Shown: positions 3,819 through 6,861 of the stretch, in pieces
Position numbering within the stretch: position 1 is the stretch's first letter
Layout: every line of letters begins with the position of its first letter
DNA from: JACPSX01 sp035288405 [NCBI: bacterium]
GTDB lineage: Bacteria > JACPSX01
Direction: 5' to 3'
DNA length: 8,176 nucleotides
NCBI GenBank assembly: GCA_035288405.1
Contig: DATEAK010000197.1
Coordinates: 1 to 8,176 of the forward strand
Notes under the pieces: generated by a model
What the model saw: the letters and a program-made list of their open reading frames with translations, nothing else
Databases searched by the model: none
Told to the model about the DNA's origin: nothing
Made by a program: the position numbers and the translations under genes

Positions 3819-4811
3819 CTATTTGATCATCCCTGAAGCAACGAGTTCCTTCACGAAGCGGTCATCCACGAACTGGTCCCAGCGGGCCCCCTTGGCCTTG
3901 GGGTTCAACGATGTATTCAGCACCGCCTCGATGGCGGCCCGGGACGGCAGGGGAACCCGCTCCCAGGACTTGTCGTACGAGTCAAAGGCTTCCTTCAGAA
4001 GAGCCCCGTCCGTGATCTTGGTGTACTTGGACATGACCGCGAGAGCTTCTTCCCGGTTCTTCAGTGTATAGGCCAGAGCCTCCACGGCGCTGCGCACGAA
4101 CCGGCGCACCGCTTCCGGCTGGGTGCGGATGTAGGAGCGCGTAGTGCCCATCGCGTGCTGCACGAAGGGGAGTTTCAGATCCGTGATGTTGACCAGTTCC
4201 TTCATCCCCAGGTTGCGGGCGATCAGCGTATTGGGAGGAGTGATCACGGCCGAGTCGATCACTCCCTCCTTGAGGGCTCCCACCAAGGCAGGAAGTTCTT
4301 TGAGATAGGCAAACTTCACATCCACATCGGGGGTGAGACCGTTTCGCGCGAGCACCAGCCGTCCCGCCACGTCCGTGGGAGTTCCCTTGTTCGTGGCGCC
4401 CAGAGTCTTCCCCATCAATCCCTTGACTCCCGCAATGTCGGGCCTGCCGTACAAGGAAAGAACGAAGGTGTTGATGGGAAACATGATGTAAACCGTATCC
4501 GCGCCCGAAAGGGCCGCTTCGAGGATCTGGGGGCCCGAGGCGGAAAACTGAATTTTTCCCCCGGCCAGGGCCGACACGGCCTGATTCGTCGGAATATGAG
4601 TCAGATCGGTATCCAGGCCGTTCTTCTTGAAAAACCCCTTCTCGCTGGCCAACCAGAGGTAGACGGAGTCGGTGCTGATGACACCGTATACCGCTGTGAC
4701 GGGAATCAGCGCCGGCTCAGCGGCAAGGACACGCATCACCGACGCCGGCAACAAGAGACCCACCGCCACAATGAGCGTCGGAAAAACAACGCGCAGCATT
4801 CTCTTTTTCAT
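3819..4811 (-). CDS. NMT1/SsuA-like ABC transporter substrate-binding protein (first of two paralogues)
   Basis: Exported solute-binding protein of the type II fold, in the family of sulfonate (SsuA), nitrate/taurine and thiamine-precursor (NMT1/THI5-like) binding proteins; 330 residues. The signal peptide covers about residues 1-31 (MKKRMLR, hydrophobic core, VLAA before EP). The mature part has the family pattern of a first strand, then SEKGFFKKNGLDTDL, then SALAGGKIQFSASG. ATG at 4811 is chosen because GGAGG lies just upstream and the signal peptide starts there. The frame is open 35 codons further upstream, but that stretch is not signal-like and contains a broken hydantoinase start. It is clearly related to the product of 4982-6004 along its length, ending in the same FVKE-(L/I) motif near the C-terminus. 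No matching SsuC/SsuB permease or ATPase is in the window, so its membrane partner is unknown. The ligand cannot be predicted. Confidence 0.9.
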   Translation of the reverse strand: MKKRMLRVVFPTLIVAVGLLLPASVMRVLAAEPALIPVTAVYGVISTDSVYLWLASEKGFFKKNGLDTDLTHIPTNQAVSALAGGKIQFSASGPQILEAALSGADTVYIMFPINTFVLSLYGRPDIAGVKGLMGKTLGATNKGTPTDVAGRLVLARNGLTPDVDVKFAYLKELPALVGALKEGVIDSAVITPPNTLIARNLGMKELVNITDLKLPFVQHAMGTTRSYIRTQPEAVRRFVRSAVEALAYTLKNREEALAVMSKYTKITDGALLKEAFDSYDKSWERVPLPSRAAIEAVLNTSLNPKAKGARWDQFVDDRFVKELVASGMIK

Positions 4812-4898
4812 GAATCCTCCCCACCGCAAGTTTCTCTCAGGAGACTGCGGCTCCCTTTTGGAACCCCATAGCTTCTTTGCTCTTCCCGCGCTCTCGCT

Positions 4899-4958
4899 GG
4901 CAATGACAAGGTCCACGAAGGTCCCGCCGATATTGAGAGCGATGCGCTACGACTCCAT
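4899..4958 (-). pseudogene. hyuA: Remnant of the 5' end of a hydantoinase/oxoprolinase A (HyuA-like) gene
   Basis: Reading leftward from ATG at 4958, the codons give M-E-S-stop-RIALNIGGTFVDLVIA. The block IGGTFVDLV preceded by R-I-A-L-(N for D) matches the N-terminal phosphate-binding motif of the ATP-dependent hydantoinase/oxoprolinase A subunit, normally (V/F)DIGGTF(T/V)DLV within the first 20 residues. An AAGGA ribosome site sits 4 nt before the ATG, and the ATG is 23 nt after the stop of the upstream NMT1-like gene, as expected for an operon gene. A TAG at 4947-4949 replaces what is often a Tyr or Arg codon, and similarity fades after about 20 codons, where the next gene's signal peptide begins. 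Bases 4812-4898 stay open in the same frame but are not recognisable. This looks like a gene reduced to its first codons by a deletion plus a nonsense change. The identification rests on a short motif recalled from the family and needs a database search. Confidence 0.5.
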
Positions 4959-4981
4959 CTTTTCCTTCTTACACGGGGAGA

Positions 4982-6004
4982 TCAGCGCCCCCGGTACAAT
5001 TGATCCGCAAAACCGCTGTTGGCGATCTCTTTAACGAAACGGGGCTCGATGAAACGCTGCGGAGAAATTCCCGGTGGGAGGGGACGGCTGGTCGCGATCT
5101 CCTCCAGAATCGTCTGGACTCCCTCCAACGTCGCTTCCGGGATCCGCTTGATATAGCGGTTGGCATAAATCTCGTACATCTGCTCCTCGGCCGGCGTAGT
5201 CTTCACGTTTGTGTACTTTTCGATGATCGCCAGAGCCCGGCGCTTATCCGTTTTGAAGCGATGAATTCCCTCCACATAAGCTTTCATGAAGCGGCTCACC
5301 ACATCGGGCTTGCTGCGCAGAAAGGACTGCCGGGCGGCAAACGGACCGAAGACGTAAGGGAGGCCCATGGTGGAGACGTCGGCCAGACGCACCAGTCCCT
5401 CTTTCTGGGCCTGCAGGGTAAAGGGGCCCGTGTCCATGACCCCGCTCTGGATCGAACCTCCTTTGAGAGCCGCGAATACCTCGGGCATTCCACCCGTTTG
5501 GAAAATGGTCACATCGCTGGTCGGGTTCAGTCCCCATTTCTTGAGCAAATAGCGACCCACGAAATCCGAGGTGGCCCCGAGGCGGCTGACCCCCATCTTA
5601 GTGCCCTTGAGCTGGGAAGGATCCTTGATCGTCGGAACCGTCCACACCTCGAAGGGGAGGAGGTCAATCGTAGTTCCGATCAGCACCACATCCGAACCGG
5701 CCAAATTCGCTGAGACCACGGCTCCCGCAGCCGTAAAAGCGATCTGGACATCTCCCGCGATGAGGGCCTGCGTGGAGGGAGGCCCTCCTGCAATGTAGAG
5801 GAGTTTATCCACATCCAGGTTGTACTTCTTGAATATCCCTTCCTCCTGAGTCACCCAGAGCGGAGCAAAAACCACTGCAACAGCGGTATAGGCGATAGGC
5901 AGAGGCTCGGCAAAGACCGGGAGCCGCTGCGCCAAGAAGGTGGCTGACAAAACAAAGCAGGTCAGCAAGCCTGCTCCCAGCTTTCGGAGCAACTTTCCTT
6001 TCAT
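4982..6004 (-). CDS. NMT1/SsuA-like ABC transporter substrate-binding protein (second paralogue)
   Basis: Exported type II solute-binding protein of the NMT1/SsuA family, 340 residues. The signal peptide spans about residues 1-32 (MKGKLLRKLG, hydrophobic core, PVFA before EPLP). The mature part has PLWVTQEEGIFKKYNLDVD and then QALIAGDVQIAFTAAGA, both standard for the family. The middle domain contains LKGTKMGVSRLGATSDF followed by a long helical C-terminal part. ATG at 6004 is chosen because GGAGGGG lies 4 nt upstream. The frame is open about 99 codons further up, but that part crosses the intergenic palindrome and has no signal-like sequence. It is paralogous to 3819-4811, sharing FKK-xx-LD, an A-G-x-(I/V)-Q loop and a FVKE-(L/I) tail, yet the two have diverged widely, so recent duplication is unlikely. 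It is the first gene after the racemase/decarboxylase-like gene. No dedicated permease or ATPase is visible; the ligand is unknown. Confidence 0.9.
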   Translation of the reverse strand: MKGKLLRKLGAGLLTCFVLSATFLAQRLPVFAEPLPIAYTAVAVVFAPLWVTQEEGIFKKYNLDVDKLLYIAGGPPSTQALIAGDVQIAFTAAGAVVSANLAGSDVVLIGTTIDLLPFEVWTVPTIKDPSQLKGTKMGVSRLGATSDFVGRYLLKKWGLNPTSDVTIFQTGGMPEVFAALKGGSIQSGVMDTGPFTLQAQKEGLVRLADVSTMGLPYVFGPFAARQSFLRSKPDVVSRFMKAYVEGIHRFKTDKRRALAIIEKYTNVKTTPAEEQMYEIYANRYIKRIPEATLEGVQTILEEIATSRPLPPGISPQRFIEPRFVKEIANSGFADQLYRGR

Positions 6005-6038: not shown

Positions 6039-6090
6039 CTCACCTTGACCCTCTCCCCCTTCCAGGGGGAGAGGGTGGAGAGAGGGTGAG
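6039..6090. repeat. Nested intergenic palindrome, probably an interspersed repeat
   Basis: The gap between the racemase/decarboxylase-like gene and the NMT1-like gene holds a strong inverted repeat. The core is ACCCTCTCCCCC at 6048-6059 and its perfect complement at 6065-6076; T6060 can pair with A6064, giving 13 pairs and a 3-nt loop. An outer pair of arms (CTCACC at 6039-6044 and GGTGAG at 6085-6090) extends it. There is no T-run after the stem on the transcribed strand, so it is not a standard terminator. Similar CCCTCACC...CCCTCTCCC...GGGAGAGGG palindromes are recalled as common interspersed elements in many environmental bacterial genomes. Here it could stabilise or process the mRNA between the enzyme and transport parts of the operon (inference). 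Confidence 0.65.
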
Positions 6091-6135: not shown

Positions 6136-6861
6136 TTATGGAGCCAGTGAGTCGAAAAGCCGCCCGTACCCCCGGATCGGTTCGTGAATCCGCAGGGTGC
6201 TGAATACGTGCCAGAGCATGGCCTGGAAGCTTGTCACCACGGGAACTCCCAGATCTCTCTCCAGTGGGGCGATGTTTCGGAAAGTCGGCATCTGGGCGCA
6301 AGGCATGTAGATCCCCTCGGCATCGGGTGCCTCGCGGAACGCATCCCTGGCCAGCTGATAGGAAGCGGAGGCAGGCATCCGGCCGATGTCAATCAGAGGA
6401 ACCGCCAGCCCTTTGATTCCTACAACTTTAAACCCGGAGTCTTCCAGAAATTTCTTGAGGAGCAGATTTTGATCCTCTGCGAAGGGGGACCCGATCACGA
6501 GTTTGTGAACCCCCAGCTTGCGCAGTGCCTCAACAGCGCCGGTCTGGCTCGTGGTGCCGGGAATGGAGGTTACCTCCCCGATCTGACGGCTGATCTCTTT
6601 ATCGAAACCGAACCCACCGTAGGTGACCGGTGGAGATCCTCCCAGGACGATAATGTCCACTTTGGCACGGGCCAGTTCGGCGGCGGCTCCTTTCAACAGG
6701 TCGAGAGACTTTCCGATGTCCTCCCGGACCAGGTGCTGAATTGCCAGAATCGCCATCACCATGGCGACGCCCGGAGGAGCCACCATGGGAAACTCTTGAA
6801 TCGGGGTCTCCGCGGTCATGGAAGGGTTAATGAAACCGATGCGAGCACGCCAGCCGTACAT
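6136..6861 (-). CDS. Arylmalonate decarboxylase / maleate isomerase / Asp-Glu racemase superfamily protein
   Basis: Cofactor-free enzyme of the Asp/Glu racemase superfamily, closest by pattern to the arylmalonate decarboxylase/maleate cis-trans isomerase branch; 241 residues, full length for that branch (about 240). Seen: an N-terminal RIGFINPS strand; GGSPPVTYGG at 74-83, where maleate isomerases and racemases have a catalytic Cys but this protein has Gly; a single active-site Cys188 in YMPCAQM; LERDLGVPVVTS after it; and a C-terminal RGYGRLFD that matches the decarboxylase tail. One Cys in the second half and Gly at 74 is the arylmalonate decarboxylase arrangement. Other pocket residues differ from that enzyme as I recall it (Gly75 for Thr, Phe127 for Tyr, Ala189 for Gly), so the reaction may be another decarboxylation, isomerisation or racemisation. 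ATG at 6861 follows AAGGAGG by 9 nt. It is the first gene of the leftward operon. Confidence 0.8.
   Translation of the reverse strand: MYGWRARIGFINPSMTAETPIQEFPMVAPPGVAMVMAILAIQHLVREDIGKSLDLLKGAAAELARAKVDIIVLGGSPPVTYGGFGFDKEISRQIGEVTSIPGTTSQTGAVEALRKLGVHKLVIGSPFAEDQNLLLKKFLEDSGFKVVGIKGLAVPLIDIGRMPASASYQLARDAFREAPDAEGIYMPCAQMPTFRNIAPLERDLGVPVVTSFQAMLWHVFSTLRIHEPIRGYGRLFDSLAP

Follow-up and report, generated by a model that had tools for sequence, protein, structure and literature searches.

The window, by which we mean the whole stretch of 8,176 nucleotides that was analyzed, carries an operon on its minus strand. By family assignment, a gene for an enzyme of the arylmalonate decarboxylase (AMDase)/Asp-Glu-hydantoin racemase superfamily (6136–6861) is followed by two genes for NMT1-like periplasmic binding proteins, NMT_b (4982–6004) and NMT_a (3819–4811). 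NMT_a is followed, in this order, by genes for a zinc-type alcohol dehydrogenase, a LivK-type binding protein and a Liv-type permease, and a second permease-like frame, recognized from its translation only, lies at the edge of the window. A short minus-strand frame at about 7290–7155, ending in ...TLSKLQAKTRLSRDLLHQAIGWLAREGKLEMQKEKRTTRVFLK, presumably resembles a small winged-helix protein. NMT1-like binding proteins are hugely expanded in genomes G001–G004, with 39, 30, 56 and at least 150 matches per genome, respectively (E ≤ 1e-30).

NMT_b ends in a TGA stop codon at 4984–4982 (minus strand) and is separated from NMT_a by a gap of 170 bp. Within this gap, on the minus strand, are all of the elements described in the original prediction: an AAGGA (4963–4967) that resembles a ribosome site from its letters alone, the codons ATG GAG TCG TAG (4947–4958), and then the N-terminal signature of hyuA. 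The ATG at 4958–4956 may be an old start codon, with the TAG at 4949–4947 as codon 4. In hyuA genes whose products begin with MRI, such as that of G182 (see below), the start codon falls at the position of this TAG. The hyuA-like part consists of 13 codons, RIALNIGGTFVDL (4908–4946), which we refer to as the relic. Its frame is open onward into the signal peptide of NMT_a, as had also been predicted. The mechanical ORF of NMT_a (3819–4916, 365 aa) begins with a GTG at 4916, inside the relic; the true start of NMT_a is placed at the ATG at 4811 by its signal peptide, by the GGAGG site and by comparison with the G182 relative. Gene callers may place the start of NMT_a inside the relic.

The similarity of the relic to hyuA was evaluated with a 13-column profile trained on 30 intact hyuA starts (L051–L080) from 8 genomes. 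The relic scored 28.4 (27.0 when identical training rows were collapsed slightly differently), compared with a mean of -3.2 and a maximum of 14.1 for 8,000 dinucleotide shuffles of the gap. When 602,017 bases of fetched loci were scanned in six frames, 32 positions scored within 6 points of the relic; all 32 contained the motif GGTxxD, and 30 of them were the training starts themselves. At the DNA level, the 48 bases from 4946 onward shared as many as 32 positions with an intact hyuA start (mean over the 30 starts, 58%), while the best match among 298,818 positions in 12 control loci reached 27 of 48.

Database comparisons pointed the same way. The 42-residue frame matched a single Pfam family, Hydant_A_N (PF05378; E 0.0024; residues 1–26 on profile positions 1–28), with 18.0 bits, which is below the gathering score of 25.2 bits. 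In tblastn of the hyuA product of the syntenic G182 operon against the whole window, residues 2–23 matched 4946–4881 with E 0.004; no second hyuA match below E 0.35 and no hyuB match below E 0.36 were obtained with the G182 proteins. The fragment, only 28 residues long, had no match among NCBIfam families and PDB sequences. In a DNA search of G182 with the 170-bp gap, 2 of 14 candidates were scored and both lay in hyuA starts (contigs C277 and C180). Across the wider set, 248 of 392 genomes gave a match at E ≤ 1; three hits covering the hyuA part were opened, and the one from G182 (L106) was hyuA, while L100 and L101 were not. The gap matches outside G182 look like noise and were not counted as evidence. 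Judged by these sequence comparisons, the similarity to HyuA N-termini exceeds chance, as the original prediction had anticipated.

The resemblance is short. Profile columns 14–20 gave a score of -0.5, which was reached by 3.5% of shuffled tails (intact hyuA genes score 5.9 or more), and columns 14–27 gave -8.5, reached by 24% (intact hyuA genes, 12.6 or more). The earlier estimate of about 20 recognizable codons was thus too high: the hyuA-like part comprises 13 codons, perhaps 15. Within these, N and V replace the D and T/S that every one of the 30 intact hyuA starts carries; the relic departs from the PF05378 signature D-[IVT]-GGTF-[TS]-D, while the remaining signature positions are kept. 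The sequence is disabled by the TAG at 4949–4947 and by the fading of similarity past codon 13, and the window contains no full-length open hyuA gene (about 700 codons, usually with hyuB).

Immediately after the last hyuA-like codon begins a putative repeat element, GTCATTGCCAGCGAGAGCGCGGGAAG (4882–4907), which might extend further. It is similar to a repeat family with the pattern GTCATTGCGAG...GCGAAGCAATC, which we take to be REP-like. Of 198 genomes of the phylum, 40 contained this family, the largest count in a single genome being 67 matches (31 forward, 36 reverse); the pattern read backwards had 0 matches among those listed in this count, and G182 had no match to the pattern. Against twelve variants of the repeat the gap scored 14.5, a value equalled by 2 of 2,000 shuffles and by 3 of 1,393 real 170-bp chunks. 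The piece agrees with the REP-like repeats at 14 of the 15 bases that open the left arm, GTCATTGCGAG, and over some of the part behind it; it differs from them in one mismatch in this arm, in having no clear right arm, GCGAAGCAATC, and in lacking an exact match to the pattern. A single copy of the pattern TCATTGCSAGSGA is present in the window, where 0.06 would be expected with at most one mismatch allowed, and none of 80 fetched loci contains it. On the basis of these comparisons the tail of the relic is probably a repeat. Both hyuA and the repeat could account for the bases CTTGTCATTG, as might be the case at a deletion junction.

Other searches with this part of the gap gave little. Four opened hits over the repeat part (L099, L102, L104, L105) were not REP elements, and the hits that overlapped REP-like elements by coordinates, two in G231 and one in G200, were weak (E 0.16–0.19). 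There was no exact match in viral contigs to the REP-like pattern taken from the window, no Rfam match at the gathering level, and nothing related by title in a literature search with the letters of the repeat. Elsewhere in the window, between the racemase-superfamily gene and NMT_b (6048–6076), there is a perfect 13-bp inverted repeat with a 3-base loop, ACCCTCTCCCCCT TCC AGGGGGAGAGGGT, which looks like another repeat element.

G182, the sole genome of its class in the set searched, is the one genome reached that has the core of the window operon. Its proteins are 81% (racemase-superfamily enzyme), 74% (NMT_b) and 70% and 80% (NMT_a) identical to those of the window, the two values for NMT_a coming from two contigs that both break inside the gene. 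Upstream and in the same direction, the G182 operon contains genes for a methylmalonyl-CoA mutase and a CoA transferase III, an intact hyuA (703 aa), hyuB and a second AMDase-like gene, so that hyuA and hyuB lie upstream of the racemase-superfamily genes. The presence of intact hyuAB in the syntenic operon indicates that these genes belong to this operon type. Synteny is confined to the core, since NMT_a is followed in G182 by genes for a short-chain dehydrogenase and a UbiD-type protein and in the window by the alcohol dehydrogenase and Liv genes.

The gap between NMT_b and NMT_a in G182 is 63 bp long and shows no trace of hyuA. The original prediction of a broken hyuA gene was borne out in part: the truncated hyuA-type gene start with its stop codon is present, and G182 ties this type of operon to hyuAB, but the intact hyuA expected between the NMT1-like genes of relatives was not seen, hyuAB being located elsewhere in the operon of the single syntenic relative. 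The result comes close to an outcome named beforehand as contradicting the prediction, namely relatives with the same short gap and no hyuA; it concerns one relative at 70–81% protein identity, whose gap is shorter than the 170 bp of the window.

The search for further relatives was extended to other genomes. In the class of G001 (148 genomes), NMT_b relatives with 59–73% identity were present in 12 genomes besides G001. By tblastn, their surroundings contained no relative of the racemase-superfamily enzyme and only one distant paralog of NMT_a (26%). Reading the sequence available downstream of NMT_b, 109 to 4,000 bases per genome and under 450 bases in 3 of the 12, in its forward frames gave no instance of the motif [IVL]GGT[FLA][TVCA]D. 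NMT_a relatives with 63–71% identity were found in 4 genomes of the same class, with no hyuA match on the stretches fetched around them. Across 395 genomes of the phylum, NMT_a matched only G182 and, at 37%, G001 (E ≤ 1e-60). The racemase-superfamily protein matched only G182 in 392 genomes of the phylum (E ≤ 1e-75) and nothing in the class of G004 (148 genomes; E ≤ 1e-70); its best relatives in the 12 genomes were 38–45% identical, except in G122 (35%) and G132 (33%). No relative was found in viral contigs, and the literature search yielded no paper joining three of the terms hydantoinase, NMT1, gene cluster and Rokubacteria.

The order of an NMT1-like gene followed by hyuA occurs elsewhere. 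Twenty-two of the 24 hyuA matches in G182 and G122 were examined, on 20 fetched stretches and locus L048, many of the contigs being short. A same-strand NMT1-like gene was present on the fetched stretch for 7 of these 22 hyuA genes, and an AMDase-like gene for 4, in one case on the other strand. On contig C180 of G182 an NMT1-like gene (27% by tblastn) ends in the start of hyuA, its stop codon overlapping the ATG, and on contig C122 of G122 hyuA begins some tens of bases after an NMT1-like gene (36%). Given this order elsewhere, it would not be unusual for hyuA to begin 23 to 35 bp after the end of NMT_b. Two hyuA genes of G182, on C240 and C277 (L118, L119), appear split into two pieces and may be decaying or mis-assembled copies.

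We consider the gap most likely to hold the dead start of a hyuA gene left by deletion of the gene body, with the junction at or next to the REP-like element, and assign this reading a probability of about 0.78. A hyuA-type gene would once have followed NMT_b in the same orientation, and its body (about 690 codons if it was like that of G182), together with any hyuB, would have been lost by a deletion whose right end lay in or beside the REP-like repeat, upstream of the ribosome site of NMT_a. The stump would have decayed since, acquiring N and V in place of D and T/S and a stop codon at or just behind the old start. It would make nothing, given the in-frame stop and the loss of two residues of the signature loop, and NMT_a would use its own GGAGG site and the ATG at 4811 for translation.

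A small insertion, in which a 5' fragment of another hyuA gene was copied into the gap along with a REP-like element and hyuA was never whole here, is an unlikely alternative. The relatives offer many possible donors (4 to 14 hyuA matches per genome in 8 genomes), and with the 63-bp gap of G182 in mind the 170 bp of the window could represent a short gap enlarged by about 107 bp. Against an insertion, the fragment represents a gene start, runs in the direction of the operon and has AAGGA and ATG in front of it, as would a gene in place; this argument is weak, since no other part of hyuA is so well conserved that 13 codons would suffice to recognize it. With one syntenic relative, and that one lacking hyuA at this position, insertion and deletion are poorly separated.

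It is very improbable that the stump has been kept as a functional leader which sets the amount of the second binding protein relative to the first. Such a role, in which a 3-codon micro-ORF, a fold and the REP-like piece would tune the ratio of the two proteins, would suit the location between two operon genes and the mechanical ORF that joins the tail of the relic, from the GTG at 4916, to NMT_a. However, the predicted fold is not unusual (z -1.55; 17 of 200 shuffles are as stable), the gap holds no terminator-like site and the region 4700–5100 no promoter-like site, and the element is absent from the G182 operon. Less credible still is that a short intergenic reading frame resembles hyuA by chance: the match spans only 13 codons and its Pfam score is below the cut-off, but no shuffle or control stretch came near it, and it lies on the right strand and at the right place relative to a gene start.

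If the deletion reading is right, this lineage lost from the locus an ATP-dependent hydantoinase- or lactamase-type step but retained the binding proteins and the racemase-superfamily enzyme, and the relic hints at the former content of the gene cluster. The occurrence of hyuAB beside racemase-superfamily genes in G182 makes it plausible that the ancestral pathway included an ATP-dependent step of ring opening or carboxylation. Since hydantoinases, oxoprolinases, lactamases and ketone carboxylases are all found among the relatives of HyuA, the cyclic amide or related compound originally proposed as the substrate of the operon is a guess. Among the substrates described for these enzymes are hydantoins, 5-oxoproline, caprolactam and aromatic ketones (PMC8453981, PMC5214803, PMC6061476).

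Compared with the family of HyuA, 5-oxoprolinase, the caprolactamase alpha subunit and acetophenone carboxylase (PF05378), the relic shares the 13 N-terminal codons with the GGTF..DL signature, positioned at the start of a gene, and lacks the about 690 codons, the signature D and T/S and the intact frame. Gene remnants are a known kind of sequence in prokaryotes, for instance in Rickettsia (PMC2374718). Like the remnants described there, the relic is a short, stop-containing piece of a gene whose intact family members are found elsewhere; in contrast to them, it is very short and no intact copy was found at the same place. It is a small, clean case in which a broken gene start, recognized from 13 codons, can be tied to the past of its operon, and it represents one more gene remnant, short but well supported, and a product of ordinary gene decay.
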